From a virus, in IMG/VR virus record IMGVR_UViG_3300034198_011597, positions 1 through 34,558 of that record: a stretch of 34,558 nt of DNA; one strand, 5' to 3'. The position numbers were made by a program, and so were the translations under genes. Under the pieces are notes generated by a model. The model did no database searches. It saw only the letters and a program-made list of their open reading frames with translations, and was not told the DNA's origin. Positions within the stretch are counted from its first letter, which is position 1; each line of letters begins with the position of its first letter. Positions 3,623 to 22,488 of this stretch are shown here, one piece after another.

Positions 3623-3644
3623 ATCTTTTTACCTCAATATTCTT

Positions 3645-3652
3645 TATTTATA
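3645..3652 (-). promoter_or_regulatory. T4-type late promoter TATAAATA
   Basis: The minus strand reads TATAAATA, an exact match to the T4 late consensus, 22 bases before the ATG of the 398-residue fibre gene. It overlaps the stop codon of the 208-residue gene. A transcript from it would begin in the short gap and carry the GAGG ribosome binding site at 3632-3635. Confidence 0.6.
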
Positions 3653-4274
3653 TTGTTACTAAATTGGTCAAGCTTTGAATCCTGACAGTGTAATCTATTT
3701 GAATTTGTCTATTCAAACTCTTTTGAACTGGGTGAAAAATTACATGAGTTAACAATCTTGTAATTACATTGCCATTTTCATCAGTTCCATAATTAGCAAG
3801 TAGTCCTAATTCATCAAAAATATAAGAACTATCAGTTTGTGTACTATTGTCAAATGCAGCTTGTCCTGCTGGTTCACCGTAGTCTAATAAACACTGAACT
3901 ACAATATCAGTATAAACTTTACCTGTAGTGTGATAAACAGTCATTTTATTTCTAGTTGGGTCTAAATTAAAAAGACTTGTATCATCAACAATCTTTGCGT
4001 ATGTTTGATTATATAATGCAGCATTTTGTCCAGTTGTGTTCGGTGGAAGATATGTAATAACCCCAGTTTCATCAACTGATGCGCCACCGTTACCAAAAGC
4101 CATTTGATAGATTTCTCCATATCCGCGGCTACTTAAAGAGTCGGCAATTGCTTCTGACATATTTTCATAGTTTATACTATTGTCTTTGTCTACCAAAACA
4201 ACAGGATTTTCTTTGTCAGTAACGTCGGTGATAGTAATATGTCCCTTGACACTAAATCCCAAATTAATATTCAC
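3648..4274 (-). CDS. Conserved-looking baseplate/tail-associated protein of unknown function, 208 aa (GTG start)
   Basis: The start is GTG at 4274, not ATG. A strong ribosome binding site (AAGAGGAG, 8-base spacing) points to it, and the only nearby upstream ATG runs into a stop within five codons. The N-terminus has the pattern F-x-x-x-G-x-I-x-I-T-D (residues 7-17), then LVDKDNSINYENMSEAIA. The middle has MAFGNGG, an ITYLPPN turn and LYNQTYAKIVDD, and the end is a run of hydrophobic strands. It has no signal peptide or membrane helix. The 49-codon gene just upstream carries a related G-x-[VI]-x-I-T-D segment. By position it lies where T4 has small wedge or fibre-attachment genes 8-11, so a connector between the giant protein and the fibres is plausible. 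I see no sequence match to those T4 proteins and do not assign one. Confidence 0.7.
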   Translation of the reverse strand: MNINLGFSVKGHITITDVTDKENPVVLVDKDNSINYENMSEAIADSLSSRGYGEIYQMAFGNGGASVDETGVITYLPPNTTGQNAALYNQTYAKIVDDTSLFNLDPTRNKMTVYHTTGKVYTDIVVQCLLDYGEPAGQAAFDNSTQTDSSYIFDELGLLANYGTDENGNVITRLLTHVIFHPVQKSLNRQIQIDYTVRIQSLTNLVTI

Positions 4275-4282
4275 TTGATTTG

Positions 4283-4290
4283 CTCCTCTT
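4283..4290 (-). promoter_or_regulatory. Ribosome binding site AAGAGGAG that fixes a GTG start
   Basis: The minus strand reads AAGAGGAG followed by 8 bases and then GTG at 4274-4272. This is among the strongest Shine-Dalgarno matches in the window and decides the start of the 208-residue protein. Confidence 0.75.
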
Positions 4291-4339
4291 TATCTTTTAT
4301 ACATTTTATCGGTAACTTTATGTAGTTAATCATGGTATT

Positions 4340-4489
4340 TCAATCAGCCCTCATTTGAACTAATACTTGACCAGTTACTGGGTCTGTGATTTTCACCGAA
4401 CCGCTAAAATAAAACCCTGCATTTTCGTTAGGTTTTTTGTTGACCTGCTTTTCAGGTTGTTTTTGACTATTTTCTTTAGTATTATCCAT
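4340..4489 (-). CDS. Small 49-aa protein, possible truncated relative of the next gene's N-terminus
   Basis: A short frame runs from ATG at 4489 to TGA at 4340-4342 in the 229-base gap after the giant gene. Residues 1-24 are very polar (Lys, Gln, Asn, Glu, Pro). Residues 26-49 read FYFSGSVKITD, then PVTGQVLVQMRAD. The second half resembles the start of the following 208-residue protein, sharing F, G, I-T-D and a later LV in the same order. It may be a small paralogue, a remnant of a duplicated or broken copy, or an independent small virion peptide. There is no clear Shine-Dalgarno sequence before the ATG. A late-promoter-like octamer sits only 5 bases upstream, which would give a nearly leaderless message. 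Translation is therefore uncertain. The rest of the gap (4275-4339) holds only the leader of the next gene. Confidence 0.45.
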   Translation of the reverse strand: MDNTKENSQKQPEKQVNKKPNENAGFYFSGSVKITDPVTGQVLVQMRAD

Positions 4490-4494
4490 ATATT

Positions 4495-4502
4495 TATTTA
4501 TC
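4495..4502 (-). promoter_or_regulatory. Late-promoter-like octamer GATAAATA
   Basis: The octamer lies right after the stop of the giant gene and 5 bases before the ATG of the 49-codon frame. It is too close to leave a leader for that frame, so it may mainly drive the 208-residue gene downstream. Confidence 0.4.
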
Positions 4503-4503
4503 T

Positions 4504-7500
4504 TTAGGATCTGTAGGTTCTGAGGAATATTGCAGCTTCAGTGTCACTTATTTGCAATGGATCACCCAATGTAGTGTTATATACATAAGAATTCCAAGTT
4601 AGATAATAGTCTATTGTAGGCAATCTATTTTGTGACAACGAACCGTATACTCGTGAATATTTTGGAATCAATACTTGTTCAGCAGTTCCATTTGCGCCGC
4701 GCTGCAATCCAGTGATTGTATTAGCGTCAAAATCTACATCAGTAAATCTAATTTGTTCGCCGTTAATAAAAATCATATCTCCTAATATTACAGTAATTTG
4801 AACTGAGTTACCTACACTTATTGAACCGTCTATTACAACGATTGGTGATAGATTTTCGATTTGCAAGCTATAATTACTTGCTGGTACATTTGTTGATGTA
4901 GTCAAGTTATACACCAAAATTTGAGAAATTAACTGCTTGTCAACATTTAATTGTACCCTCATTGGGTTGGATGAGGGGTTGTACCCAATCGGTACTGTTT
5001 GAGTAGTAACATAACGATCAACCACATGAGAAACATCATCTAGGTAGATAGTATCATCAATATTTTCTAGTGACTCTGTTAACCAGGTTGTTAATAAGTT
5101 GTCAGCTTTGTAAACACTAAACTCATTGTTTTTATTTACATTTTGAATGTAAACCAACTCATTTGGTGTAGCACTAGGTATCATACTCATGATTGTTATT
5201 TCATCTGATGGGTCTATCGTAGCTAATATGCTAATATTATTGCTAGGATTTACACGAAGATTTGATGGTGCTACACGATAACCATTAACAGTTACCCATA
5301 ATCTATCAACATCAACTTGTTCCCATTGAGTAACATTCATAACTCCAGATGCAGTTGTCAATGGATAAGTATCTCCACCTCTAGTTTCTGTTACTTTAAT
5401 GTTATTAGCATCTATTTCAGAAATATAATAAACCGTTCCCGCAACAATTCCACCAAAAGTTGAACCAGTAAATACTACAGGTGTACCTATGATTAATTCT
5501 GAAACATCAGTCACTGTGATGAACTTGGTACTTCCGTTAGTATTTGTTGCGGTAGTAGTTACTAGAACAAATGATTTATCTTTCCAAGTGTAGCCTCCTG
5601 AAATATATGTATTAATATCAGTTACTGGATTATTATCTGCGGTATAACCCTGGTCATATGGATCAAAATACAAATCAAATGTAGTAGAGTTAATAACTCT
5701 TGCATAGTAAGTATTATCGTTTAACTGAACAGAACCCAAAGTACCGTCAATTCTTATCAAGTCATTAGTAACAAATCCATGAATAGTGCCAGTAGTTACT
5801 CTTACTGCTGGTTGACCACCTACATATGCAAACATACTACCAGAACCATCAGATAGTTCAAAAACTGAACCCCCTGGAGTGGTTGATATTTTGAAAGAAA
5901 TTGCATCAACAATTGTGTGAACATAATACACTGTATCTGTAATATTAATTCCACCAAAACTACTTGCTGGTGCATTAAATATTACAGGTTGCCCAACTAT
6001 AAAATTTTCAGTTCCTGTACATGTTATTGCGTCCGTAAATGAACTGCTTGAAGTACACAATGTAATTGCAATTGGGAGAGTAATATCATTGTTAATATTT
6101 ACAATGTTAGCAACGCGCTTACCGGTAATATCATATTCAGTTAAGAAATACTGTCTATGTGTTTCGTTAAAACTTGTTACTGCAACTGTTGAACCACTTG
6201 AAGGTGTTGTTACCAATGTTAATTCATCAGTTGAAGAATTGATTGTGTACTCGGTATCACTTAATCTTAATCCATCAACTTCAACAATTGCATTTGTAGG
6301 GTTAGCTTCAGTAACATTATTAGTTAAAACAAACACTGAAGTAGAACCATCAGCAGTAAAAATTTCAGTTTCTGGTAATGTATATCCAAATGTGTACGGG
6401 TTGTCTTCTCCTAAAACTGTGAAAGTTATATAATCTACATCATTATCGTATTGTGCAGAGAATATTAAGTTAGCAGTAACACCGTTATCATTTAATCCAA
6501 ATGCATAATCATTTGATATAACAACTGCGCCGCCTGTGGCACTAGTTAGTGCTAATACTGGTCCACCTAATGTAGTAGAAACAGTAAACTCATTACTATC
6601 AATAATCGTTTTTACATAATAAACTGTCTGTGGATTTATAACACCACCAAACATAGTATCACTGAAAACTATAGGATCATTAGGGCTAATATTTGCAGTA
6701 CTGTTACATGTAACAGAATTTGTACTACTACTTGTTCGTGTTACTCTTGTTATAGCACCTAAATTCATTCTAACTCCATTGTAATCTACAATAGGATCTG
6801 TCCAAACAAGACCACTGCCTTCCTGAATAACCACATCCATTGTACCAGTATCGCTAGATAGAGTGAATGTAGGTCCCGAAACTCCTGAAGGCAAAGTGTT
6901 AGAAATAGTTATTTTATTTGTGGCACTGCTTACAGTTTTTATATAATAATTTGTATCAATTGCCACACCACCAAATACATCCCCTTGGAATCGTATGGTA
7001 CTGTTCACTACAAAATTATCTACATTTTCACAAGTTATTGTATTGTCAATTGAACTAGTTTCAGTAGCTAGAACATTAAGCGGGAATGTGCCATTTCTTA
7101 TTACCCCTGAACCTTGGGTTGCTGTAGCTGAATAATTGCAATTTAATGCAATTTCATTAAATCCAGTAACTGTATTAGTTCTAATAGGTTCATAATCGGT
7201 ATTAGATTTCATCAATTGATTTCCATTACCAACTTCATATACCTCAATGAAAACTTGATCACCTATTGCTGGAGCAACAGACAATGTTACTGTTTTTGTT
7301 ATCCAATCAATAGTATAGTCATTTGACTCATAAAGTCTAGTAGCTAGAAACTCATTAGTAGAATCTAAAATATAGACTGCAAGTTGTGCCGGTGTTTCTA
7401 CTAAACCATTAAAACTAAAAGTAGTTTCAGTGCCAGAATCTTGTGTAACTATTCTTGATACTACATTATACCCGACATGTTGATATACTGTAGCATCCCA

Positions 7501-10500
7501 AGTAGTTCCTGGGCGGGTAGTAATAACCATAGTTAAATTGTCGCTTACTACACCTGGAACCAATTCTTCTGGACCATAGCCAGACAAGAACGGTTGACCT
7601 TGAATATTATATACAGTTTCCAATGAAGTAAAAGTATTGGCAGAAGTCCAGGTAATACCGTTTGAACTAACCAATATAGTATTATTATCACCTAACACTA
7701 AAAACTCAGTGTCAATAGAATTAAAAGTAATAGTGTTTAAATCCTCAGATGTTCCGCTTGTTCTATCTACCCAAGTGTCTCCGTCAACTGATGTTTTAAT
7801 TGTGCCATTATCACCAACTGCAACAAAAATACTATTACCATATACAACATCGTTTAGATTTTCAACTAATGTTCCAAAGTCTGTAACATCAACCCAATTA
7901 GATCCATTTATACTATAGTAAATTATACTATTATCGCCTACTGTTACTAATAAATCATTTCCAGGTGTTACTGCATTAAATCCAATAGATGATAAAGTAG
8001 CTGAAGGTTCAGTCCACGATATACCGTCGTCTGTACTTATTAAAATAATATTTCTACTTACAACTGCTGAGCCTATAGTTTCTTGCCCTTTACCCACAGC
8101 AACAAAACCATCAAAGAAGGTTATGTTTGCCCCCACTACATCATTTAACTGATTAACTAAATTACCAGTAAATTCATAAGTTTGAGTCCAATTTATGCCG
8201 TCAGTACTTGTCACAATATTATCACCTACTGCTGCCCAAGATCCATTATGATTACCTACAGCATTCAGTGTGGTTGCCGCTACTGATAATGTTGGGGCTC
8301 CCGTCGACCATGTTACCCCATCTGTACTTGTAAGTACTGGTGTAGCATTATTATCTGATGTTATTACATATCTACTTCCATCATAATCAATATCTGTCAA
8401 ATTAATCATTTGTTCAGATACTTTGTCAATCACCCAAAGTTTAGTTGTAGCTGGGCTGGTAATAGTAGCTGAGAATGTTGAATTGACTGCACCGATATAA
8501 GTAGTACCGTTCCAAACAACTCCTGTACCATTTATATCTTGTACAGTAAAGTCACCGCCACTTAAATCAGTGTCAAGAATGAATTCATCTTCTGGAGAAA
8601 ATGAATTACCCAAATATGTTATATAAGGATAAGTAGTACCGCTTACTAACTGCGTTATGTCATTACCTGGCATATTGATAGTTGGTGCATAGTAACCACT
8701 AATTCTATCTAATGCATTTAACCTGCGGTCACCGCTATCTAATAATTCCCATTTTCCTACAATAAATTCTTCATCGTTATTACTAATAACGCACTCATAC
8801 ACTTTTCCGTTATACTTAACTAAACTTTGTGTGAATATGAATGGTTCTGGTAAGAAAGCATAATCATATGCTGCGTATGGGAAGTCAGTTTCAGGTACAG
8901 GTACTTTTAACAACGGATCAATATATAATTTACATGTTGTAGGAGAAACAACATCTACATAATATGATATTTCAGGTCCAAATGGTGTACCGTATGATAT
9001 TACTTTGGTTATTTCTCCATTAGGTCCTATCGTGTCTACTAATAAAGTCAAGTCATTAGTTGGATCGACACCTCCCAAATCAACACCAGAGATAACTATA
9101 GTGTTGTTTACAGCAAACCCTGTTCCTGCTGTTGCAATAACTGTTAAATAACCTCCTAATTCATATGTAACATCAAACGAAGGTACTGTTGTAGGATATT
9201 GATTTAAAGTTACAGGTCCTAGTTCATCAGAAATTGCTAGCGTAGACCCACCTAATGAATTTGAAACTTTGATGTACGGAGAGCCAGTGAGTGTCATTAA
9301 CCCTACTCCATTAGCTAAGGTTAAAGTAGGTCCTAATAATATTTCAGATAAGGTAAATCTTTCACCATCAATAATAGTTTTTATATAGTAACCTGTATTA
9401 ATATTAATGTTGCCAAAACTATTATTACCAGAAAACTTAACTGACATTCCAACAAAGAATCCTGCAGTGCTCGCACAAGATACTACATTACCTGCACTTA
9501 ATGTGCTTGAAACTTGTGTAGTAACATTACCAAGCTCTGTAATATAATATGTGGTCCCTGCAATTAAACCACCTATACCAGTGACTAATCGTAGGGGCAT
9601 ATTTACATACATTCTGCTTATGCCACCACTAACATCAGTTAAACAAACAAAATCACCGTTTGCTACAGTAGCTGATATTTTACGCTCAATTAAATCGTTA
9701 TTATCTCCGGATACACCATTGTATCCAACAGTATTTGTTTTGTAAAATGTTAGTTTTTGACCTTCAAGTTGTCCTGGACTTAATGGTAAGCCTATGTTAA
9801 TAGTCATTGATCCTGTAGCAGTAGATAAGTCTACCAAATACTTTTGATTAGTTGCTACACATCCAGTATTATCGGCTGCTACCACTGTCGTTAAATCAAA
9901 TATAGGATAATTTATAAATGGCTTTATAGTAAATTGAGTTGAAGATATTACAGTGTTAACATAATACCTAGTGCCATATTCAATATTTCCAAAGTTTGTG
10001 ACAACAGTACCAGCTATAACCATAGATGTAAATATAACTGGATCATTTATAGAAATAACTGAAGTGGTGTTACAAGTAATTACATTTGAGGTTCCGTTAA
10101 TAGCCAATATATTCATTACTAACGGCGTGCTTTCAGTCATTATTGTTAGTGATGTATCTGATAATACTGTACTTACATAATAAATTTCATTCTCAATGAT
10201 GTTGCCAAAAGAAGTGCCTATAAAGAATACAGGTACCCCTGGATATAATCCAGAAGTGCCACCTAAACCACTGAACGATAACGGGACAGTAATTGAATCA
10301 TTTGATCCATTTGTTCCTGTTATTGGTCTTATTCCTGGATAATCAATTGTAATCACTGTTGTATTGATTTCTTTTGCTACTATAGCATACAATGGTTGAA
10401 AAGCAGTTCCATTGTTTAAATTAAAGGGAGTAGAACTACCTTGCTCTAATGTTATAGTAATTTCAGTGCCACTAACAATTGATAAAATATAAAATGTTGT

Positions 10501-13500
10501 ATTTAAAAGTACTCCACCTATAGAAGTACCTTCAAATTTAATTGGCATACCCACATAAAAACCTGTAGTTGGGGTAATAAATCCTTCAGAAGGCGCGCCA
10601 CCTAAAGATGGTTCTATAGTAATAATATTGGTTGAAACTGCTGTAGATACAACTGTTCTAGTTCTCGACGACCATACAATTTCACTTTCACTGTCTACAT
10701 TAGAAATTTGAAAGTTAGCCCCTTCTTTACTTGAAACAAATGTTTCTACTGGGGGTATTTCAGATGATAGATTTATCGAAGAACTTGCAATAGTTTCTGA
10801 AGTATTATACTCACCTGCATAGAAAGAACTATAGTAAGAACCTGGAGTCCAATCTGTAACTTTAGGAGTATAAGTTGTCCTATCAAATCTTAAAGTAATT
10901 TTATTTTCTCTCACTGGAGATGCATCAGATACACAAGATGCTCTTGCACTTACTTCAAGTGTATTGTTAACACCAACTCCAGTATTTCTTAGAAATACTC
11001 GATCAACATCATTAATTGCATTAGCATAATTTGTATACAAACCAATAATAAATGATGGTGCAACATCTAATACTCTAACATAGTAGTATTGATCGGGGTA
11101 CAAACCACCAACTTTAGTAGTATTTTCACCGACTATATATTTTACTAAATCACCTGTTACTAACATTGGTGATGGTAGACGAATAGTGTTTGACGCTGGC
11201 GATACATCAGATGATGTAAAAGTGATACTCATTGAGGGTTCAATTACTATCTCTGGTAAAACTTCATACCCATCACCTGAATCTATTGTATTAATATATA
11301 AGATTTTATCCAAATTCATTACTGCTTCAAAAACTGCTTTTCTAGCAGGCTCTGGATACACTGAGGTGTCAATATAAGCAGTAATTTTAGGAGGATTAGT
11401 ATAGCCTCTTCCAGAATCAAGTAATGTTGCAGGTGGCAAATCAATAAAGATTTGTTGTCCTGGTAAATGAGTTGAAATAGTTGTGCCGTTATAACCCCTA
11501 GTTAAATTATAAATTCTGTTTGCAACACGGTCTATTGCTGAATATACAATTATTTCTTCATCAATTTTTACAGTACCTGCTACAGGAAATCCATATATAT
11601 TTTCAACATATATACTGTTGGAGTTTCGTAATACATATGCAGCAACTATTGTTATTGGAAAGTTTTCTGTTCCAACTAATGTAAGACCCTTATTTTGAAA
11701 CCATTGATTATATGGTGTAGTTTGCCATATTGGATCTGTTGGTAAGAATTCATTGCCATATCCAGGGTTAGTGTTAACTAACATTGGAGTCATGAACTGA
11801 TTTAAATTAAAATCATACTGAGCTGGTAAATCAAAATCAGTAATGTCACCTTCGTATATCTCTGAACCTGTGTACTTAAATACAAATTCTTTAATTAAGA
11901 CATGGTATGGTTTAGCTTCATTTAAATAGCTTTCTAAAAACACTTCATTGTCTGATTGATAAACTTCGATTGGTCGCAATTCTCTAATAGTATGAGACAC
12001 ATCAACTAATGAAGTTTTGTTCAACCAAGGTAAGAAGTTTTGAGATTCTATAGTTTCAGCTTGAGAATATTCAAACAATAATATCAAGCTCTTATTTCTA
12101 TGTATCAATAATTCGTCAGTATAAATTTGTTCGGTCAACGCACGAATAATATTTCTAGTTTCTTCTGATGGGTATTCATCATACGGGGTTGTGTCAAAGA
12201 AATTATCCCCAAATCCAAACTTAGCATAAGCATAATCCCAAAGACTTAGACTGAATTCGATTGTACCATCTTCTAGACCAATACGATTCCATGTGTAATC
12301 TGAACCTAAAACATAAGTTTCTGATTTACCTGCACTATTTTGTGCAACACTAACTATAGTTCCAATTGGAACCACTAGTGCTGATAAATCAGCATAGATA
12401 GGTACTTGAATAGCTGCTTTAGTGTTATTATCATATCCAGTAGCCCACCAATTTACATATGACCAAAATAATGTAGTGTTATAGAAAGGCTGATCAGTTG
12501 ACGGATTTATCGGTCCAATTTTTTGTAGGAAACTTATATTGTTTCTAATTTCAGTTATTGGATATAGTGAAAGTATCTCATTTGCATAAGTTAGATAATT
12601 TTTAACTGCATTAAATCTACTTATAAAGAAGCTTTGTCTAGGTCTAGCATAGATACCAGTTTGTACTGCTTTAGGCAAATACGGATTAGGTACTATAGCA
12701 CCGGTCTCATCAACGCCAGACATACTGTCAAGCATTCTGTCATATAACGAAATAGGCACATTGTCAGGGTTTGTGTTTGGTAAGCCTGGTAAAAAGTCAT
12801 CAGCATAGTTAGTACGGATTAATGTGTAAACAGAATGTGAAACATCATCACCTGTACCAGTAGAAAACCCTACATGTAAAACTGTGTCGGCATTGTTGAT
12901 GTATTCATCACAGTTGTATAATCCAAACACACTAGGTAATAATGAAGCAAAATAACTTATACCTGACGCTTTTGGATTTTCGATATATGATTCTACGATA
13001 GTGTCAGATAAAGTTTTTCCTAATCTACTAAACACTACATTAGTATTGCGTACCCAAAAATAATACACAGGCACTAGATTGCCCCTTGCATCTTGTGTAT
13101 ATTGAATAACATAGTCATCAATATTGAACGCTGTACCTGGGCCAGTATATTCTATTGGTGTTACATCACTTGCAATCCAGCTATAAACTGCAACATCACT
13201 ACCGGGAAACACTGTACCCCAATATTCACTGTTATACACTACATCGTCTTGATGATAGTTTACAAACCTAACATTGCTTGTATTAAACCAAAGTTGTCCT
13301 AATTGTGCAGACCCCCAAACGACATTACCGTTAGTTACTGAATCAGGACTATTATAACTTGCAGGATCAATATTTGAAATTACATCAATATTTTCTCTTG
13401 CAACACCTAGTATTTTACCTTGTAGTGGATCAATATAGTCTAGATTTTCTAGTGTTTCGTTTGTTAATGCACTAAACAATTGAATGTTTTGAATTTTATT

Positions 13501-16500
13501 AACATCTACTACTAAGGAACTACTTCTATAAACTACCCAATCTTGTTGTTCTGTAGTGTTTTCATAAATCACCACTCTACCTTGTGTACTACCTACATTA
13601 AATTCGGGAGTACCTACCATGACTTTCCAATTATTAAAATCTAATGCTTGTCCATAGTAGGGTTGGTAACCATAATCTGTTACTGTGTCATTTACGCTCT
13701 GCGCATAAATAAATTTTCCAGAGTTTGCTAAAGTTTCATTATAATTACTTAAATAATCAAACATGTAGACAGCGCCTGCATTTAATGATTCATCTATCCA
13801 CTGAGTGGTGTTATTGTCAAAAATAGTATCGTTGTCAAAATTTTCATCATCTGTTTGATCAAAAGTAGTTGCTATGAATCTATTACCAGTAGGTGCACTA
13901 GCCACAAAAGATCCATATTCATTAAACTTTATAGTAGAACCAAACTGAGTTGTGCCATTAGGATGCGGACAGTTAATAGTTTGAGTTTTTGTGTACGGAA
14001 TGATACCTAACTCACCCCAAATACCACTTGATAGGGCAACAATATCAAGTTTATTGTTTACTGCTGCGGCTGCTGTGTTTATTAAACTAATTGTTAATTT
14101 TCCACTCAACGCACTAGCAGCAACATTCAATACATTTGCTGAATTAATTTGTGTTGCTATACTTTCTGCATTACCAGCCACTAATGGAACTGCATAACCG
14201 TTAATTAATAATGTAGTAGATGATGTCAATACTGCATTTGTCGTTCCAGTAACATAACCGTACTTACTGCCACTATTTGTAAATCTATAAATAACACCTT
14301 CAACATCATATTCTACTAACTCAAACGGACTACCAACTAGAATTTCAGTAGAATAAGTAGTTGAGTCTAAGCTATAACCAAACTTAGAACCTGATTTTGT
14401 TGTTTGACTTGAGGTTAGTTTTTGTTGTTCGGTAAAATTTGAAACACTTACTTCGATTAAGTCACCAGTAGCTATCGCTGATAATATATATAAAGTGTTA
14501 TTGACTACATAATATTCACTATCTAATAATAAATTGCCATTTTGTGTTATATATGGGAATTTACTCTGTACTGAAATATTCATGCTACCGGTGTCAGTTA
14601 TCACAACAACTTCGGCGCCGCCTCTAGTTATAGAAACAGTAAATTTTGTACTATTAATGATACTTTTTACATAATAAACTCTTGAAGTAGAAATTGCGCC
14701 TGCTGATAATAAATTACCAGAAAATGCTACAGGAATACCCACTTGTAAAATATTGGTATTGCTAGTAGTTAATGAATTATCAACACTTGATGTTGCAGTA
14801 ACAGTAGCAGTTGTGACTAATGGTGAACTAACTAATGGGAATGTAGTTGGTATTAACGGTATGCTATTAAATTGTGCGATAAAAGATTGGCTTAACCTGT
14901 CAAACACATATGCCGCGCCCCAATTATCTACAGAAATACTGTAATCATAATTAGGTGCGCCAATAACTACTTTGTCACCGTAGTAGTTAGTTGAAATTGA
15001 ATATCCAAATAAATCTCCAGCAGCACTTGATACTGATGTAAGATAGGTTGCAAATTCATATAAGTCAGTTACAGGACTTTTGTTATATACATATACTCTA
15101 TTATTTGCAGTGTCAGAAATATAAATCCATTTCTTGTCACCAGAGATAGCTACTGAGCTACCCCAACTGGTTACTAAATTACTAGGTGCTTGTATCTGCT
15201 GTAATTCAACCAAATCATTTACAGTCAATGAAGTATCTAAAATATAAACATATACTTTTCTATCACTTGCTGTTGCTCCGGTTGGTTGTGATACTACAAA
15301 CACATCACCGGCATAAGCAATTGAACTTCCATATGATGTTTCTTCTGATTTTGTACCATATAAATTATATTCATTATCTAGTGGATTGAAAACATATCTA
15401 TATAGAACACCTAAACCTGCATCACTAATTAAATATCCTGATTCGGGTGTGTATGCGACTGCACTTCCAAATGTTGAACTTCCCGATCTTGTTATAGGAT
15501 TTTGAAATTGATAGTTTATACTTTTTCTATATACTTCCCATCCACCAGAAGTACCAATATCTACCCATGCTTTATTTTTATAAAATTCATTTTGAAGTAA
15601 AGACAAGTTAGTAATGTCTGATACATTCGTACAACGATGTGATTGGAATGTAAATACAGTTCCACTACCAGTAATTGTTAGTTGTCCAAGAGTATTATCA
15701 GTAGTGGTTACTTGTATATTATACGGATCTATAACAGTGTTTACTGTATAATAACCATCTATCCTAGCGTCAAAATTAATTACAGCGAAAGGTTGATATT
15801 TAGTTAATGCATGTGGCTCTTTGAATGTAAATGTTAAAACATTAGTAATTGTATTTGATGCTAGGGTCAATTGACCTTGACTTACAGGGGATTGTACATT
15901 CCATTTACCCTGTAGATTAGCTATCCAAATATAATCCCCAACATATATTTCACTTAATGGTTTAATGTTGTTTGCCATTCCTGAATAAAAATAAGAATGC
16001 GCTTTTACATCTTTAAAGTTTACATATCCTGCATCAGGTAACAATGTACTTGGAATACTAGAATTTCTTGTAGGCAATACATTTGCATTTGTAATAGGTC
16101 TGCCATAATTAAATAATGAATATAACGGTACTTGCTGTTGCACACCGTCAATCCATATTCCATTAGTTAGACCAACAATACTTGGATTGCCAGTTAAATC
16201 TGGTTGGCTAAGACGGAATTCAATAAAATTGTTATTTAAAACGCCACCAAATTCACCTGATTTAATTGCCCAATTTTCATATATATCGTATTCTATGCCA
16301 CCTTGTGGTAGATTTACACCCTTAAATGCTTCTGTTGCATTTCGTGTACCTTTATTTTTAATTAAATTCTTATAAACATTAATTTGAGTAATGTCAGTTA
16401 GGTCAGCTAAGGCTAAATAATCTCGCGGTCTATAACCTATCAAACTGAAACTAAGCAAATCAGCATCACGCTCTAAATTAGCTTTATTTGAGTCGTAGTA

Positions 16501-19500
16501 TAGTGTACTTTCATAAGATCGAGTGCTAGAGTTAGGTAACAAACCTTTTTGAACTTCATTGTAATCAGTTTCTTTCCATTCAAGTTCTTCAAAATATAAT
16601 TTTGGTTGTATTATTTTTAATGCTGTCCAATATTTGTTTTTATACTTTACAATTTCACCTTTAGTATATTTGACATTTGCATTCCAGTCAAGAATATTGT
16701 CCTGATTTAAAATAAAGCCCTGAGCATCAACAGTGCCGTCCCATTCTGCTGTTTTATTACCGCGCAAATATATTCGATTCTGTCTTAGACCAGTAATCAA
16801 ATTATAAATCACATCATCAAATAATGTTACATTGTCAAATACAACACCATGCTCAAAATTAAATAAATTAAACTGCCCGTACGCAACCGTATCACCTTCA
16901 TTTAACGGCTGAGCAGAAAATGCAGTGCTTTCACGAATAATTGCCAAATCAACTGATTGTATTGGATATAAGTTTTGATTTAATATAAAGTTTTGTTGAT
17001 GTAGTGTTAATGGTTGAACAACACTACTTTCTTTATCAATTAAAATTAACTTGGCTGCAGGATTTAAATTAATAATACTTCCTGGCTCCCATCCAGATTG
17101 AGCCCAGTATAAAAACTCAGCAACCATTTGGTTCCAATTAACTTCTAAACCTGTTTCAATCTTATCAAAAATTACACCTTGTTGAGTTAGATATTTTCCG
17201 TATCCAACTAAAAAGTTTGCAACTTCTTGTACTGAATATAATTCATTACCATATGGTAATACATCAACTTTATTTTGAAAGTCTTTAGGTGTCTGAACTG
17301 TCAACCCACCAACAGTAATGTTTTCATAGTTTCCGTTAATTTTAGCTTTTAGTAATTTAAAATATGCATATGTTTGTGAGTTACCAAATACTTTAAAATA
17401 ACCATCAGATGTTTGCTGCACGATAACACTACTATAAATGATCCTATCAAATGGTTGATTATCATACAATAATACTGAGTAGCTTTCATCAGGTATTAAA
17501 AGACTTGCATTGGTACTATTAGGTGTGCCTTTTTCTACATAAAACTTTAACAAATCTTTATCACTGAATCCAGCAACTCTATAAACTAAACGAACATCTA
17601 AGTTATCCAATAATGTTGTAATATTGGCTGTTGCATCAACACCAACTTGTTTTTCATAATCAACAATCCAATTTATATAGCTAGTTTTAGCAGTACCTGA
17701 TCCATAGATTTCTATATCGTTAATTACTAAGTGGCTTCTATTGTTTACTAGATATTGATTAAATTCACTACTATATTTGTAATTGTCTACATCGACTCCT
17801 AAATTAAAGAATTGTGCTGGTTTAGTCAATGCTAAAATTTTCATCAAATCGAAAGGCCAAGAACTACTTCTACGATAACTTAGTTCTGCAGGACCAACAT
17901 CTCCCACTCTCCAATCACGCCTAAACGATTGATTGCTATAATTACCTACGATAGCATCAAACGCACTAACTAATTCACCCGCACTATCAACTGGTATTAC
18001 TTGCAACAATTCAGGTCTTACATATTGGGGGAGTATTACTGGATCTCCGTTGTTCCAATTAACACCTTGAGCCAAATCATTCCATAATATTAAGTTATCA
18101 CTTGTGTATGGAGCAGGACCATATCTGTCTTGCCACCATGACGGCTGAATTGTAAACCCTAGCATTTCCCAAGGTTTAGTATCAGGATTAGAAGTATCGT
18201 AAAAATATTGATAAACTCCTCTCCAATAACCTTGCGGTATAACTGCTTTGTCTATCTTATTACCACTTCTATTGTAGTTGTAAGTGTACTGATTGTTAGC
18301 ATTATAAAATTGCGTTTTATAGTCAATTCTATTTTGTCCTATCCAATTTAAAAAGTTAATTGAATAAATTTCTAATATTTCATCATATGAATAATCAGTG
18401 TCTCTGAAAAATCCAGGAATTACATCAACTTCACTTATTGGTATTTCGTTACTTAATTTTAAATTGTTGTAAATTCTCTTTTCAAACTCAAGTAATACTT
18501 GGTCTCTAAAATCAATTAACTGCCCAGTGCCACTATTATATGATCCATATAATTTATTATAGGATCCATCGTGGCCCACAATGAAATATGTAGGTTGTGA
18601 ATAGTTACTGTCTAGAATAACTGTAGGTATAGTTGCAGGATATAATCCTAATTTAGTAGGAGTGTTAGGTACATAGCTACCATATGTTTGATTATACTCT
18701 TTAATTGTAATTTGATCGTTGGGTAATAAATCCAATGTTATAGTTAATGATGGACTGTCTGTACTTACAGTATAGTCTATGCCTCTAATTAATTGAGTAA
18801 CTACATTTGATCTAGTTAGATAAACCAAAACACTATAATAATTGGCTGTTTCAAAATTATAGATTCTACTTAATGGGTAAATAGTAAAATCAGCAGAGTT
18901 TGCAAAATTATATGTATTAGTAATAAATGCTGATTTAGATGGAAGCATATCAGACCAAAAGAACGAATCTGCATCTGTTTTATTTGCTGTAATTTGCTCT
19001 AACGCATCATCTAACATATAAGAAGCAGTATTGTACCTGACATAATCGGTATTATTAACTGTGCTTACTAGTAAAGTTTTAAAGTTAATATATTCTTTAC
19101 TGTTAAACATCAATGCATTAAACAAACTATGATTTTGTTGTCGTAAAAAAGTTCCTGGTAAAACTAATGACGCACTATTCTGAATAATTTTATTGCCATA
19201 TGGAACAAGATTACCTAAATCTCTAAAATTATTAGATCCAAACACAGGGCCAACAGTTTCAGATGTATTATAAAATATACTTTGATATTGACCACGAATA
19301 TCACCAATATTAACTGAGGTAATATCTGCATTGAGTGGATTATTATTTAAATTTATTGGAATATCATAATATGCAATACTACTTACTTGATCACTCAATA
19401 TAGCAATTTGAATAACTGTATCTACCAATGACGGAACACTTGTAAAAGTAACAACAGTAGAATTGGTTGAAACTGTAACGGTATAGTCGGTACTTTGTAC

Positions 19501-22488
19501 AATTTGATTGTTAACAAAAACTTGAATAGTAGGCCATTCACTAGTAGTCAACTTAGCAATATCGCATGTGAAAGTAAGTGTTTCATTGCTAGCATAATAA
19601 TCAAGTTCAAAAATTTGATATTGAACACTAGGACCAATTGCAGTTTGCCAACCTATTTCTCGAACATAAGTGTCTATATCACTATAGTTATACACATATC
19701 CTGTATTAACTGATTGGGTAACCGGGCTTCTAGTAACCGAATTAACATAACTAAATGAATCAGAATTCAAAGAAACATCAAAATTAATGTCTCCTACATT
19801 TTGAACCGCACTATATCGTATAGGGAAACCCAAAATTGGATCATCGGTGCCAGTACCTAATCCATATGCAAATAATTTATTTCCTTTAAAATTTGTGCCT
19901 TCATAGAATGTTGGATTTCCAAAACTTATACCATTTGCATCAAAAATGTCAAACAACGGTGGTTGATTTACTCTTGTTTTTTGTTGTGCTTCAGACCAAA
20001 CCCCATTGGTATAATAAAAACTTTGTCCTTGATAGTTATATCCTCTAAAGGTTACCACTTGCTCACCGTCTAATACCTCACCATCTTCAGCAACAGATAA
20101 AGTAATTATTAATGGGGTCGAAGGAGTAATAGTAGTAAATCGTGCAGTATAAATTTTATTTCTAACTTGATCATTGGCATCATTAGCAAATACTATTCTT
20201 GCTCCATCATACAATTGATAATTGTCATTTGATACATCACTTGCTACAATAGATGCATTAGTAAATCCAGGAATTAATTGATATGCTGACCAAGACGCAA
20301 TTAAAGTTGTTACTCCACTAACTGTTTCTACTGAACTGATTCTAGCAGTGCTTGGTAACATATTTTCAGAATCAGCAATAAATTGCCCAACTACAAAAGT
20401 TCCACTAACATTGGTAGTATTAACTGTTATAGAAACACTTAGTGGTGTTACGGTAACTGTCATGGTTCCTGATGCAGAAGTTAACGGCATAGCAGGACCA
20501 CCCAATGTTTCAGAAACTCTAAAAGTTATTGAATTTATAACTTCAATTATATAATAACCGGTATCAGCAGTTAGTCCACCAAAAACAGTTCCACTAAAAA
20601 CAACGGTGTCATTTACATTGAATCCCGCAGTAGAAGAACATAAAATAGAATTATTTGGACTTACTGTTGTTTGAGTAGCTGTTTGTACTATAGGGCCAGT
20701 AATACTAGATATAGTAGCGTTATACCCAGTATAGACTTCTACATCAGGATAATAAACTAATTTTCCTTCTACTTCAGTAAATGCGTCAGTTGACCGTGTG
20801 TCAAAAAAATCAATAGGTTGTTTACCAACTATTCCAGTATTGTATAGTCTTAAATTAGGATAGAATTCTATTATTGGTCTTTTTGCTTTATAATCTTGTG
20901 TAGTGTATGCAGTTAATAAGTCAGGATTGTTATTATAACTTGCAGTTGCTTGAAGCACCTCAATGTGGAACCAACGATTACTTCTAGACCATGGATTTTT
21001 ACTTATAGAGTTTCTAGCAATAGTTATATAATCAGGAACAAGTGGTATGTATAAATTAGAATCATAATTTTCTATATCATACGGTGTAGTGTCATATGGA
21101 ATATAATCAGCAGAAGTGAATGGCTCAGGTGATATTAATGAAGTTACTTCTATCAATTCAATTGCAGTTCCAACACCTTGAACATAATATTCATTGTTTT
21201 CGTAACTAGCTGGATAAATATTTCCTTCGAAGATAACTTTTAACCCATTAGTAAACACAACGCCATTTGGTGCTGTATATTGTTTTTTACCAATAATGTC
21301 ACTAAGAATGTCAACTCTGTTAGTTGCATTACTTTCTACTAAATTAATTTTACCTACATTGTTTATTGAAGTACCGTCTTGATAATATAACTCATCTAGA
21401 ATAGTGCTATTATACGGTATTAATGTGTTAGACCCTGCAATATTTCTATAAAAACTTCTTGAAATCCATTCTGTTCCATATCTTACTGTTATTTTTTCAG
21501 TAGAAGGTATTAAAGTTGCAGGTGTTAAATTAAGTGTAGGGTCAGATGAACTTCCAGAAAAACTAATAGTATAAAAATATTGTTGCTGCTCTAATGTTCC
21601 GTTTTGATAAAACATCAAAGTTAGACCATTCAATGCAGTTATACCATCGATGCCATTTTCTAAACTAGATAATGTCTGGCCATTAATTGCAGTAAATGCT
21701 AATGTAGTTACAACATCTACATAATTACTTCCGCTAATTTGAAAAGCTTCTAAGCTATTTGGTTGCGGTACAGTAAAAGTAACAATGCCGGTAGAAGCAC
21801 CGTTGTTGCTCACTCCTATAATATCACGAGTTTGTATGTTAGATTGTGCGGGGTCTATTCCAGTCAACCCAGGAACACCTTGAATCCAAAACGAAGAAGT
21901 TTGATCAACCGTGAATGTATAAGTGCCGCCGCGCAATAATGTTATATTAGGGTTAATATTACTACCCACATCCCCTTCAACAGAGATAACATATCCATTG
22001 GGAGTGTAAGTTACTATATAATTTACATTATTAAAAATAGTATCGGTGGAAACAACAACAGCCTCAGGGCCATTAGGTACCCAATAGTATTGATGGAAAT
22101 TGATTATCTTATCTAAATCTGTAAAACTATCCCATGAATAGAATTCACTTTCAAATAATCTACTATTGTCACCGGTGATTCCATTTTCTAGCTTAAGAGC
22201 ATCGATAATTCCAGGATAGCTAATAAAATCTTTTGCAGTCTCAGTATCAGTTTTAAGGAAAACAACACCAGGATCTAACTGATAGTCGGTTCGTGTTTTA
22301 GTAGGTTCTGTTACATACTTGTCTTTAGCATTAATACCATAACCAAACTTACTACCTATATATCCTTCGATTCTTTCATTTCTGGGTTGTTGTACCACCT
22401 GATCTAAAGTTGCACTTAAAAATTGTGCATTAGTAGGTGTTTTAAAAATATCTGGTAGAAAATTTAAAGTTCTGATTCTTGTTGTCAT
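4504..22488 (-). CDS. Giant modular baseplate/tail protein, 5994 aa, in the gene 7 position
   Basis: One uninterrupted frame covers 52% of the window, from ATG at 22488 to TAA at 4504-4506. It starts 28 bases after gp6, where T4 has gene 7, whose product is about 1030 residues. The head (1-150) has FLPDIF, NERIEGYIGSKFGYG and PGVVFLKTDTETAKDFISYPG, a pattern I associate with large tail proteins of environmental T4-like phages. Residues about 1350-2300 are Trp/Tyr-rich, for example WWQDRYGPAPY and SGWEPGS. Seven FG-GAP-like blades start at 2340, 2386, 2442, 2494, 2703, 2849 and 2945. A GQLWFN motif is near 3064-3069, and EAKPYHVLIKEF lies near 3520-3545. Six Asp-box-like S-x-[DN]-G-x-x-W motifs span 4721-4947. 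Eleven copies of a Tyr-Tyr module are scattered from 606 to 5720. Two RG-x-NGT modules sit near 3664 and 5931. No enzyme motif, signal peptide or membrane helix was seen. Peripheral baseplate and host-recognition roles are inferred. Confidence 0.85.
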   Translation of the reverse strand: MTTRIRTLNFLPDIFKTPTNAQFLSATLDQVVQQPRNERIEGYIGSKFGYGINAKDKYVTEPTKTRTDYQLDPGVVFLKTDTETAKDFISYPGIIDALKLENGITGDNSRLFESEFYSWDSFTDLDKIINFHQYYWVPNGPEAVVVSTDTIFNNVNYIVTYTPNGYVISVEGDVGSNINPNITLLRGGTYTFTVDQTSSFWIQGVPGLTGIDPAQSNIQTRDIIGVSNNGASTGIVTFTVPQPNSLEAFQISGSNYVDVVTTLAFTAINGQTLSSLENGIDGITALNGLTLMFYQNGTLEQQQYFYTISFSGSSSDPTLNLTPATLIPSTEKITVRYGTEWISRSFYRNIAGSNTLIPYNSTILDELYYQDGTSINNVGKINLVESNATNRVDILSDIIGKKQYTAPNGVVFTNGLKVIFEGNIYPASYENNEYYVQGVGTAIELIEVTSLISPEPFTSADYIPYDTTPYDIENYDSNLYIPLVPDYITIARNSISKNPWSRSNRWFHIEVLQATASYNNNPDLLTAYTTQDYKAKRPIIEFYPNLRLYNTGIVGKQPIDFFDTRSTDAFTEVEGKLVYYPDVEVYTGYNATISSITGPIVQTATQTTVSPNNSILCSSTAGFNVNDTVVFSGTVFGGLTADTGYYIIEVINSITFRVSETLGGPAMPLTSASGTMTVTVTPLSVSITVNTTNVSGTFVVGQFIADSENMLPSTARISSVETVSGVTTLIASWSAYQLIPGFTNASIVASDVSNDNYQLYDGARIVFANDANDQVRNKIYTARFTTITPSTPLIITLSVAEDGEVLDGEQVVTFRGYNYQGQSFYYTNGVWSEAQQKTRVNQPPLFDIFDANGISFGNPTFYEGTNFKGNKLFAYGLGTGTDDPILGFPIRYSAVQNVGDINFDVSLNSDSFSYVNSVTRSPVTQSVNTGYVYNYSDIDTYVREIGWQTAIGPSVQYQIFELDYYASNETLTFTCDIAKLTTSEWPTIQVFVNNQIVQSTDYTVTVSTNSTVVTFTSVPSLVDTVIQIAILSDQVSSIAYYDIPINLNNNPLNADITSVNIGDIRGQYQSIFYNTSETVGPVFGSNNFRDLGNLVPYGNKIIQNSASLVLPGTFLRQQNHSLFNALMFNSKEYINFKTLLVSTVNNTDYVRYNTASYMLDDALEQITANKTDADSFFWSDMLPSKSAFITNTYNFANSADFTIYPLSRIYNFETANYYSVLVYLTRSNVVTQLIRGIDYTVSTDSPSLTITLDLLPNDQITIKEYNQTYGSYVPNTPTKLGLYPATIPTVILDSNYSQPTYFIVGHDGSYNKLYGSYNSGTGQLIDFRDQVLLEFEKRIYNNLKLSNEIPISEVDVIPGFFRDTDYSYDEILEIYSINFLNWIGQNRIDYKTQFYNANNQYTYNYNRSGNKIDKAVIPQGYWRGVYQYFYDTSNPDTKPWEMLGFTIQPSWWQDRYGPAPYTSDNLILWNDLAQGVNWNNGDPVILPQYVRPELLQVIPVDSAGELVSAFDAIVGNYSNQSFRRDWRVGDVGPAELSYRRSSSWPFDLMKILALTKPAQFFNLGVDVDNYKYSSEFNQYLVNNRSHLVINDIEIYGSGTAKTSYINWIVDYEKQVGVDATANITTLLDNLDVRLVYRVAGFSDKDLLKFYVEKGTPNSTNASLLIPDESYSVLLYDNQPFDRIIYSSVIVQQTSDGYFKVFGNSQTYAYFKLLKAKINGNYENITVGGLTVQTPKDFQNKVDVLPYGNELYSVQEVANFLVGYGKYLTQQGVIFDKIETGLEVNWNQMVAEFLYWAQSGWEPGSIINLNPAAKLILIDKESSVVQPLTLHQQNFILNQNLYPIQSVDLAIIRESTAFSAQPLNEGDTVAYGQFNLFNFEHGVVFDNVTLFDDVIYNLITGLRQNRIYLRGNKTAEWDGTVDAQGFILNQDNILDWNANVKYTKGEIVKYKNKYWTALKIIQPKLYFEELEWKETDYNEVQKGLLPNSSTRSYESTLYYDSNKANLERDADLLSFSLIGYRPRDYLALADLTDITQINVYKNLIKNKGTRNATEAFKGVNLPQGGIEYDIYENWAIKSGEFGGVLNNNFIEFRLSQPDLTGNPSIVGLTNGIWIDGVQQQVPLYSLFNYGRPITNANVLPTRNSSIPSTLLPDAGYVNFKDVKAHSYFYSGMANNIKPLSEIYVGDYIWIANLQGKWNVQSPVSQGQLTLASNTITNVLTFTFKEPHALTKYQPFAVINFDARIDGYYTVNTVIDPYNIQVTTTDNTLGQLTITGSGTVFTFQSHRCTNVSDITNLSLLQNEFYKNKAWVDIGTSGGWEVYRKSINYQFQNPITRSGSSTFGSAVAYTPESGYLISDAGLGVLYRYVFNPLDNEYNLYGTKSEETSYGSSIAYAGDVFVVSQPTGATASDRKVYVYILDTSLTVNDLVELQQIQAPSNLVTSWGSSVAISGDKKWIYISDTANNRVYVYNKSPVTDLYEFATYLTSVSSAAGDLFGYSISTNYYGDKVVIGAPNYDYSISVDNWGAAYVFDRLSQSFIAQFNSIPLIPTTFPLVSSPLVTTATVTATSSVDNSLTTSNTNILQVGIPVAFSGNLLSAGAISTSRVYYVKSIINSTKFTVSITRGGAEVVVITDTGSMNISVQSKFPYITQNGNLLLDSEYYVVNNTLYILSAIATGDLIEVSVSNFTEQQKLTSSQTTKSGSKFGYSLDSTTYSTEILVGSPFELVEYDVEGVIYRFTNSGSKYGYVTGTTNAVLTSSTTLLINGYAVPLVAGNAESIATQINSANVLNVAASALSGKLTISLINTAAAAVNNKLDIVALSSGIWGELGIIPYTKTQTINCPHPNGTTQFGSTIKFNEYGSFVASAPTGNRFIATTFDQTDDENFDNDTIFDNNTTQWIDESLNAGAVYMFDYLSNYNETLANSGKFIYAQSVNDTVTDYGYQPYYGQALDFNNWKVMVGTPEFNVGSTQGRVVIYENTTEQQDWVVYRSSSLVVDVNKIQNIQLFSALTNETLENLDYIDPLQGKILGVARENIDVISNIDPASYNSPDSVTNGNVVWGSAQLGQLWFNTSNVRFVNYHQDDVVYNSEYWGTVFPGSDVAVYSWIASDVTPIEYTGPGTAFNIDDYVIQYTQDARGNLVPVYYFWVRNTNVVFSRLGKTLSDTIVESYIENPKASGISYFASLLPSVFGLYNCDEYINNADTVLHVGFSTGTGDDVSHSVYTLIRTNYADDFLPGLPNTNPDNVPISLYDRMLDSMSGVDETGAIVPNPYLPKAVQTGIYARPRQSFFISRFNAVKNYLTYANEILSLYPITEIRNNISFLQKIGPINPSTDQPFYNTTLFWSYVNWWATGYDNNTKAAIQVPIYADLSALVVPIGTIVSVAQNSAGKSETYVLGSDYTWNRIGLEDGTIEFSLSLWDYAYAKFGFGDNFFDTTPYDEYPSEETRNIIRALTEQIYTDELLIHRNKSLILLFEYSQAETIESQNFLPWLNKTSLVDVSHTIRELRPIEVYQSDNEVFLESYLNEAKPYHVLIKEFVFKYTGSEIYEGDITDFDLPAQYDFNLNQFMTPMLVNTNPGYGNEFLPTDPIWQTTPYNQWFQNKGLTLVGTENFPITIVAAYVLRNSNSIYVENIYGFPVAGTVKIDEEIIVYSAIDRVANRIYNLTRGYNGTTISTHLPGQQIFIDLPPATLLDSGRGYTNPPKITAYIDTSVYPEPARKAVFEAVMNLDKILYINTIDSGDGYEVLPEIVIEPSMSITFTSSDVSPASNTIRLPSPMLVTGDLVKYIVGENTTKVGGLYPDQYYYVRVLDVAPSFIIGLYTNYANAINDVDRVFLRNTGVGVNNTLEVSARASCVSDASPVRENKITLRFDRTTYTPKVTDWTPGSYYSSFYAGEYNTSETIASSSINLSSEIPPVETFVSSKEGANFQISNVDSESEIVWSSRTRTVVSTAVSTNIITIEPSLGGAPSEGFITPTTGFYVGMPIKFEGTSIGGVLLNTTFYILSIVSGTEITITLEQGSSTPFNLNNGTAFQPLYAIVAKEINTTVITIDYPGIRPITGTNGSNDSITVPLSFSGLGGTSGLYPGVPVFFIGTSFGNIIENEIYYVSTVLSDTSLTIMTESTPLVMNILAINGTSNVITCNTTSVISINDPVIFTSMVIAGTVVTNFGNIEYGTRYYVNTVISSTQFTIKPFINYPIFDLTTVVAADNTGCVATNQKYLVDLSTATGSMTINIGLPLSPGQLEGQKLTFYKTNTVGYNGVSGDNNDLIERKISATVANGDFVCLTDVSGGISRMYVNMPLRLVTGIGGLIAGTTYYITELGNVTTQVSSTLSAGNVVSCASTAGFFVGMSVKFSGNNSFGNININTGYYIKTIIDGERFTLSEILLGPTLTLANGVGLMTLTGSPYIKVSNSLGGSTLAISDELGPVTLNQYPTTVPSFDVTYELGGYLTVIATAGTGFAVNNTIVISGVDLGGVDPTNDLTLLVDTIGPNGEITKVISYGTPFGPEISYYVDVVSPTTCKLYIDPLLKVPVPETDFPYAAYDYAFLPEPFIFTQSLVKYNGKVYECVISNNDEEFIVGKWELLDSGDRRLNALDRISGYYAPTINMPGNDITQLVSGTTYPYITYLGNSFSPEDEFILDTDLSGGDFTVQDINGTGVVWNGTTYIGAVNSTFSATITSPATTKLWVIDKVSEQMINLTDIDYDGSRYVITSDNNATPVLTSTDGVTWSTGAPTLSVAATTLNAVGNHNGSWAAVGDNIVTSTDGINWTQTYEFTGNLVNQLNDVVGANITFFDGFVAVGKGQETIGSAVVSRNIILISTDDGISWTEPSATLSSIGFNAVTPGNDLLVTVGDNSIIYYSINGSNWVDVTDFGTLVENLNDVVYGNSIFVAVGDNGTIKTSVDGDTWVDRTSGTSEDLNTITFNSIDTEFLVLGDNNTILVSSNGITWTSANTFTSLETVYNIQGQPFLSGYGPEELVPGVVSDNLTMVITTRPGTTWDATVYQHVGYNVVSRIVTQDSGTETTFSFNGLVETPAQLAVYILDSTNEFLATRLYESNDYTIDWITKTVTLSVAPAIGDQVFIEVYEVGNGNQLMKSNTDYEPIRTNTVTGFNEIALNCNYSATATQGSGVIRNGTFPLNVLATETSSIDNTITCENVDNFVVNSTIRFQGDVFGGVAIDTNYYIKTVSSATNKITISNTLPSGVSGPTFTLSSDTGTMDVVIQEGSGLVWTDPIVDYNGVRMNLGAITRVTRTSSSTNSVTCNSTANISPNDPIVFSDTMFGGVINPQTVYYVKTIIDSNEFTVSTTLGGPVLALTSATGGAVVISNDYAFGLNDNGVTANLIFSAQYDNDVDYITFTVLGEDNPYTFGYTLPETEIFTADGSTSVFVLTNNVTEANPTNAIVEVDGLRLSDTEYTINSSTDELTLVTTPSSGSTVAVTSFNETHRQYFLTEYDITGKRVANIVNINNDITLPIAITLCTSSSSFTDAITCTGTENFIVGQPVIFNAPASSFGGINITDTVYYVHTIVDAISFKISTTPGGSVFELSDGSGSMFAYVGGQPAVRVTTGTIHGFVTNDLIRIDGTLGSVQLNDNTYYARVINSTTFDLYFDPYDQGYTADNNPVTDINTYISGGYTWKDKSFVLVTTTATNTNGSTKFITVTDVSELIIGTPVVFTGSTFGGIVAGTVYYISEIDANNIKVTETRGGDTYPLTTASGVMNVTQWEQVDVDRLWVTVNGYRVAPSNLRVNPSNNISILATIDPSDEITIMSMIPSATPNELVYIQNVNKNNEFSVYKADNLLTTWLTESLENIDDTIYLDDVSHVVDRYVTTQTVPIGYNPSSNPMRVQLNVDKQLISQILVYNLTTSTNVPASNYSLQIENLSPIVVIDGSISVGNSVQITVILGDMIFINGEQIRFTDVDFDANTITGLQRGANGTAEQVLIPKYSRVYGSLSQNRLPTIDYYLTWNSYVYNTTLGDPLQISDTEAAIFLRTYRS
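5330..7090 (-). repeat. Cluster of four Tyr-Tyr modules in the giant protein
   Basis: Four degenerate modules of about 75-90 residues have their Tyr-Tyr pairs at about residues 5181, 5290, 5521 and 5687. Shared pattern: T-x-x-[IV]-T-C near the start, then P-[IV]-[VI]-F, then F-G-G-[IV], then T-x-Y-Y-[VI], then F-x-[VI]-S, then G-G-P and L, ending G-x-M. The copies differ at DNA level, so the duplications are old. Confidence 0.75.
7620..8440 (-). other. Six-blade Asp-box-like beta-propeller region in the giant protein
   Basis: Residues about 4683-4956 hold six motifs: STDGVTW (4721), STDGINW (4761), STDDGISW (4818), SINGSNW (4859), SVDGDTW (4900) and SSNGITW (4941). Spacing is 40, 57, 41, 41 and 41 residues. 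Between them recur strands such as FVAVGDNG and LLVTVGDNS. This is the layout of Asp-box (sialidase/BNR) or Ycf48-like propellers. No sialidase catalytic set was recognised, so a binding or structural role is more likely. Confidence 0.75.
9270..10670 (-). repeat. Cluster of five Tyr-Tyr modules in the giant protein
   Basis: Five modules are centred on aromatic pairs at about residues 3999, 4103, 4175, 4314 and 4367. The first has Phe-Tyr in place of Tyr-Tyr. They share the F-G-N/G-G turn before the pair and the F-x-[IL] strand after it. Module lengths vary because loops between the conserved strands have grown or shrunk. Confidence 0.7.
13560..15480 (-). other. Seven-blade FG-GAP-like beta-propeller region in the giant protein
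   Basis: Seven blades begin FGSAVAY (2340), YGSSIAY (2386), WGSSVAI (2442), FGYSIST (2494), FGYSLDS (2703), FGSTIKF (2849) and YGQALDF (2945). Most continue with a strand ending near a G-x-P or D-x-G turn, such as VVIGAPNY, ILVGSPFE and VMVGTPEF, and then a G-x-[VA]-Y-x-[FY] strand. Seven is the number expected for a closed FG-GAP (integrin alpha-like) propeller. Long insertions lie between blades 4 and 5 and between 5 and 6; the first holds one Tyr-Tyr module. Confidence 0.7.
14568..14830 (-). repeat. Single Tyr-Tyr module inserted in the FG-GAP propeller
   Basis: Residues about 2553-2640 match the module found elsewhere in the giant protein: PVAFSGN, then VYYVKSI (Tyr 2605-2606), then KFTVSITRGG and a G-S-M end. 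It lies between propeller blades 4 and 5. Confidence 0.65.
20455..20672 (-). repeat. Single Tyr-Tyr module near the N-terminal part of the giant protein
   Basis: Residues about 606-678 form one of the clearest copies: SILCSSTAGF, VVFSGTVFGGL, then GYYIIEV (Tyr 645-646), then FRVSETLGGP and LTSASGTM. Confidence 0.75.

Follow-up and report, generated by a model that had tools for sequence, protein, structure and literature searches.

The gp7 of phage T4 is a protein of 1,032 aa (phrog_964; PF21427/21428/21456), and its counterpart in simple phages, gpI of P2 (Tail_P2_I), has 176 aa. Cyanophage proteins annotated as gp7 'baseplate wedge initiator', which also stand in the gene-7 position, reach 3,007 aa in S-SSM7 (SSSM7_101) and 4,107 aa in DSL-LC03, and they contain a true T4-gp7 module that matches T4 gp7 with an E-value of 4.7e-10. 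Both SSSM7_101 and SSSM7_103 of S-SSM7 (NC_015287) are labelled gp7 in the gene field; SSSM7_103 was tried as a gp7 reference and dropped, and its label 'baseplate wedge subunit gp7' looks wrong, since the T4 gp7 profile matched SSSM7_101 (E 1.4e-8) instead.

A second set of very large proteins is found in jumbo phages under phrog_10938, a nameless family of 3,300-4,600 residues described as 'virion structural protein'. Its isolate members are those of 121Q (gp582, 3,323 aa), CBB (CBB_236, 3,340 aa), Vibrio phage 2.275.O (3,771 aa), SCTP-2 (gp140, 3,807 aa), PA5oct (gp355, 3,857 aa), Atu_ph07 (AUZ94962, 4,449 aa) and Phosso (XYS97451, 4,555 aa). The gene lies directly after gp6, or after a large gene in the place of gp6, and the order gp25-gp6-giant is kept in Atu_ph07, PA5oct, 121Q, Phosso and CBB. 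CBB_236, which is encoded beside gp6, was detected by mass spectrometry of virions with 21 peptides and 7.7% coverage (PMC5259590), and the record of PA5oct gp355 is tagged ESI-MS/MS; the family is thus considered to be part of the virion. The category 'head and packaging', to which PHROGs assigns this family, is at odds with its place in the baseplate cluster.

The window analysed here is the whole of the 34,558-nucleotide IMG/VR record IMGVR_UViG_3300034198_011597, about half of which is occupied by a single minus-strand open reading frame that runs from an ATG at 22488 to a stop codon finishing at 4504 and encodes 5,994 aa, with a mass of 659 kDa and a pI of 4.3 (hereafter, the giant). It is not without precedent: its residues 1 to about 3,300 match phrog_10938 in successive pieces (E 1e-80, 5e-146 and 1e-49), and profile-profile comparison with the isolate orthologues gave an E-value of 8e-230 over 2,304 columns that span positions 9-3,589 of the profile, with strong support for residues 1-140, 410-600, 780-2180 and 2950-3560. 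Judged by these profiles, the giant is the long form of the family, with which it shares a homologous core (residues 9 to about 3,560), the slot after gp25-gp6 and the organisation as one giant CDS. The two groups differ in length (3,323-4,555 aa in isolates, 5,702-7,756 aa in the clade of the window), in an approximately 80-aa repeat present in 12 copies in the giant and in none or one in isolate orthologues, and in the BNR propeller of the giant, to which no isolate orthologue could be matched.

The order of genes on the minus strand is 446-aa (phrog_12050) - gp53 - 924-aa - gp5 - gp25 - gp6 - giant - 208-aa - 398/452/319-aa (Table 1), in which the 446-aa and 924-aa products are virion proteins and two of the last three genes are fibre-like. 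The gene-7 position assigned earlier to the giant was thereby recovered (gp53 - 924 aa - gp5 - gp25 - gp6 - giant). None of the genes downstream could be identified as gp8-gp11. The gp5-type hub shows a trace of an OB domain and no lysozyme domain in Pfam, whereas gp5 of RaK2-like phages bears a lysozyme; Ala/Gly/Ser hydrophobic repeats abound in the C-terminal half of the hub. At the end of the 398-aa structural protein, whose gene is the second one downstream of the giant, there is an autoproteolytic domain of Peptidase_G2-like type (E 1.8e-4, below cut-off).

Table 1. Position of the genes of the putative baseplate cluster in the window and of the regions delimited within the giant protein (residue numbers refer to the giant)
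Feature	Coordinates	Strand	Remarks
gp53-type wedge protein, 105 aa	32834..33151	-	
gp5-type hub protein, 1,193 aa	26425..30006	-	
gp25-type wedge protein, 149 aa	25951..26400	-	PF04965
gp6-type baseplate wedge protein, 1,126 aa	22517..25897	-	phrog_10646, E 2e-252; directly upstream of giant
Giant ORF	4504..22488	-	phrog_10938 member with large internal expansion
N-terminal domain, residues 1-140	22069..22488	-	LPxIF..FLxATLDQ ... YSW ... NFxxYYW; length sd 0.5 aa
Beta-sandwich, residues ~160-250	21739..22011	-	weak cupredoxin-like fold matches only, prob 0.44
~80-aa repeat copy, residues 602-679	20452..20685	-	within core
Best conserved core, residues 780-2180	15949..20151	-	common to Atu_ph07, PA5oct, 121Q, SCTP-2 and CBB
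CBM5/12-like (chitin-binding type 3) motif, residues 1935-1956	16621..16686	-	below Pfam cut-off; 14/25 family members
KGT...ExW module, residues 1995-2100	16189..16506	-	candidate gp7/gpI-type wedge module
FG-GAP-type propeller region, residues 2350-2949	13642..15441	-	length variable; poorly shared with isolates
~80-aa repeat copy, residues 2559-2639	14572..14814	-	within FG-GAP region
End of shared core, residues 2950-3560	11809..13641	-	AF2 model confident (mean pLDDT 83); no PDB fold match
Five ~80-aa repeat copies, residues 3943-4401	9286..10662	-	
BNR-like propeller, residues 4640-4999	7492..8571	-	55-514 aa in relatives, where it is optional
Five ~80-aa repeat copies, residues 5139-5723	5320..7074	-	
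C-terminal cap, residues 5740-5994	4507..5271	-	length near-constant, sd 5.7 aa
208-aa protein	3648..4274	-	phrog_11259; directly downstream of giant
398-aa structural protein	2426..3622	-	

As the source record is a metagenomic fragment, and as the gene is broken in some isolate records (two CDS in SD-1_S14, scrambled in the K64-1 RefSeq record), the possibility was considered that the giant is an assembly or annotation artefact, in which neighbouring genes were joined through a chimeric contig or missed frameshifts. The size and the single open frame given in the initial annotation were recovered: only the terminal stop is found in frame, the other five frames contain 304-807 stops each, and the chance of an open frame this long was estimated at log10 P = -205 (dinucleotide model). 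The ATG lies 28 bases past the gp6 stop and is preceded by the stretch agagaaaagaag. GC content by codon position is flat across the gene (about 0.41/0.41/0.18) and thus gives no sign of a join. In three close pairs of relatives, dN/dS was 0.03-0.27 in every 500-codon window of the gene, rising somewhat beyond residue 4000.

Relatives were searched in IMG/VR with residues 1001-2400 of the giant, which retrieved 213 sequences. In all of the best 80, a single long frame comes after gp6, which measures about 1,127 aa except in one relative (L084) with a shorter gp6 frame, and the 208-aa gene directly follows the giant in 32 out of 32 relatives. Thirty-one genes closed at their stop encode uninterrupted proteins of 5,702-6,796 aa, and in another relative (G023) the giant reaches 7,756 aa, read as two overlapping stretches that share one frame. 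In the latter genome the counterpart of the 452-aa ORF consists of two adjacent similar copies of about 319 and 318 aa (L139:11865-13800). Another relative (G026) is a contig of 524,565 bases, among the larger phage contigs, with a giant gene of 5,889 aa. A second scan of IMG/VR, using the isolate sequences as query, gave more than 570 distant relatives; of those fetched, the ones with a complete gene encode between 3,467 and about 4,700 aa, and several with an open gene run past 5,300. The splitting of this region into separate genes in related phages, named beforehand as an observation that would count against a single giant protein, was not the pattern seen: of more than 150 relatives, all but a few have one frame, and the broken copies (SD-1_S14, K64-1 RefSeq, L341) look like frameshifts, sequence trouble or poor gene calls. 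With the same closed gene in more than 30 assemblies and the orthologue annotated as one CDS in most isolates, the artefact explanation is already refuted in practice by the relatives. Because many independent assemblies show one frame and purifying selection extends over the full length, the giant gene is confirmed as a genuine single coding frame and not an assembly artefact. The lineage that carries it is an abundant one of uncultured jumbo phages, and its protein family is widespread yet unstudied; no paper describing the family or its clade was found in the open-licence literature.

Within the giant, the N-terminal domain (residues 1-140) is common to all isolate orthologues, and the C-terminal cap has clear profile links to distant uncultured members and weak ones to the C-termini of the PA5oct (E 1.6e-4) and Atu_ph07 (E 4.4e-4) orthologues. 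The two propellers proposed earlier were both recovered as propeller-type regions, one as an FG-GAP_2 match at residues 2484-2529 (E 1.9e-7, Pfam) and the other as BNR-like S.DG..W motifs at residues 4721-4900. No fibre or receptor-binding family domain was found along the giant in Pfam or PHROGs, a PDB sequence search returned chitin-binding chains and chance matches only, and the C-terminal halves of relatives gave no match in a Pfam scan. The CBM5/12 match was discarded as proof of carbohydrate binding (a motif only, below cut-off), and a cupredoxin or laccase identity for residues 1-630 was abandoned because the fold hits were low in both probability and TM-score. Propellers, CBM5/12-like motif and the faster evolution of the expanded part are indirect signs of an outward function of the protein.

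In the comparison with T4 gp7 recommended in the initial annotation, most of the chain matched it neither in sequence nor in fold. Whole-profile comparison gave no match (hhalign E 0.1 or worse), none of the Pfam Gp7 domains (helical domain, domains V and VI) was found in the giant, and the T4 gp7 profile phrog_964 was silent in five complete isolate genomes and in six long relatives. AF2 models were obtained for residues 1-630 (mean pLDDT 76, N-terminus poor) and 2940-3660 (mean pLDDT 83), and Foldseek placed no gp7 among the best 50 PDB hits of either; the second model had strong matches in BFVD only, to family members including the Atu_ph07 structural protein, which implies a fold with no solved relative in the PDB copy used. 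The N-terminal 140 aa were also tried as a gp7/gpI module and rejected (profile comparison gave nothing, and the AF2 model of this part was poor).

The KGT module is the only hint of a link to gp7. The most constant stretch of the protein (residues 1930-2099) contains an invariant KG(T/S) with an E-W strand motif after it, and a KGT/KGI motif is present in the conserved module of P2 gpI, cyanophage gp7 and T4 gp7; in P2 gpI, KGT is likewise followed by an E-W strand motif when compared by eye, although no significant profile match was obtained between gpI and the giant (one gpI sequence, little power). The isolate profile was tiled into 73 windows and compared with the cyanophage gp7 module, and the KGT window ranked first (E 9.6e-5; overlapping window 3.1e-4; next non-overlapping window 0.013) with the register at KGT, a match that is weak, was found after the fact and is absent against T4 gp7 directly. 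It was much weaker with the profile of the window's own clade (E about 0.006-0.009), and the family K2 profile against cyanophage gp7 gave E 0.003, against 0.26 for the reversed control. Beyond this module (E 1e-4, isolate profile) and a shared hairpin motif, no homology was detectable between the core of cyanophage gp7 and the giant, although the BNR-like segment of cyanophage gp7 resembles that of the giant. T4 gp7 and the giant can be compared in gene position after gp25/gp6, likely role and possibly the KGT module, but the giant is six times longer, and along the chain neither its sequence nor its fold matches T4 gp7 significantly. By position the giant corresponds to gp7. From the KGT module and the absence of another gp7 in complete isolate genomes, we infer that the giant is likely a gp7 equivalent. 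As cyanophage gp7 of 3,007-4,107 aa has a true gp7 module, giant size at gene 7 is seen in at least two lines, and it looks as if the cyanophage and window families became giant separately.

The many repeats mentioned in the initial annotation were found as the 12 copies of the ~80-aa unit; relatives have 9-17, and across them repeat number and protein length are related (about 94 aa per copy, r 0.61). The profile of the repeat found at most one copy in each of T4 gp7, the cyanophage proteins and the isolate orthologues. With its middle part (positions about 186-280), the cyanophage gp8 profile phrog_438 finds eight places within the giant of Atu_ph07 and other large proteins of S-SSM7; this is another repeat that they have in common, and it may lead annotation astray. 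Among 32 relatives, length barely varies in the N-terminal 140 aa, in residues 1300-2349 (sd 1.5 aa for residues 1300-1929, and sd 0 for residues 1930-2099, which count 170 aa in 32 out of 32) and in the last 255 aa; it varies in residues 141-779, 2350-2949, 3900-4639, 4640-4999 and 5400-5739, and the BNR-like propeller has shrunk to 55 aa in some relatives. The extra length sits mostly between the core (to about 3,560) and the cap (5,740-5,994), and consists of repeats and the optional propeller. Since both core and cap are conserved, growth has been mostly internal, not by a tail appended at the end.

Considering these data together, the giant is probably a baseplate structural protein of a jumbo myophage, one 659 kDa chain that takes the gene-7 slot of the T4-like wedge cluster, where it most likely has the function of gp7. 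An adhesin or fibre-like protein attached to the baseplate could also occupy this slot, the wedge partner of gp6 then being another, unrecognised protein; such a protein would agree with the lack of a significant direct match to T4 gp7, with the adhesin-like character of the modules (BNR and FG-GAP propellers, CBM5/12-like motif, repeats) and with the faster evolution of the expanded part. We regard this as unlikely, because the core is more conserved, and in residues 1300-1929 and 1930-2099 more constant in length, than would suit a host-range adhesin, is retained across hosts from Agrobacterium to Vibrio, and occupies a fixed slot beside gp6, in addition to the hint of gp7 provided by the KGT module.

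Distinctly less probable is a giant in which gp7 has merged with the functions of gp8, gp10 and gp12, wedge, pin and short tail fibre then being one chain, close to the suggestion of the initial annotation that the giant replaces gp8 to gp12. What speaks for such a replacement is absence: the gp8 profile was silent in six long relatives (the positive controls, T4 and S-SSM7 gp8, were found), and the genes downstream of the giant are not recognisable as gp8-gp11. However, gp8 is equally undetectable in 121Q and PA5oct, whose orthologues are at least 2,000 residues shorter, and a missing gp8 therefore does not go with giant size. Tail-fibre-like genes lie downstream within the window, no gp8 or gp10 family match was found inside the giant (Pfam, PHROGs), and five out of six relatives have weak matches to the N-terminus of gp10 in other places, although these phrog_958 matches, restricted to 30-70 residues of the N-terminus, were not accepted as gp10. 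The replacement of gp8-gp12 by the giant is thus speculative.

Under the preferred reading of a baseplate protein in the role of gp7, the core, with about 2,600 conserved residues (1-3560 minus inserts), would dock beside gp6, gp25 and gp53 in each of the six wedges, and the region between core and cap, with its ~80-aa beta-type repeats and optional BNR propeller, would stand out from the baseplate as an exposed arm or rim. This arm may bear surface contacts with the host, as it is the fastest-evolving part and its propeller has been gained and lost. A tentative extension, which we hold to be possible, is that a strut was turned into a modular platform of six arms of about 660 kDa (if one per wedge), providing a built-in, evolvable host-contact or trigger device in replacement of separate pins and short fibres, and that cyanophage gp7 followed the same course separately.

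For annotators, these results mean that a nameless family filed under 'head and packaging' is linked to the baseplate. Whereas baseplates are usually described as made of numerous small proteins, in this lineage one chain of 6,000-7,800 residues occupies a wedge-protein slot, and the family provides a natural series, from 3.3 to 7.8 thousand residues, in which to study the growth of a contractile baseplate and its acquisition of surface modules.
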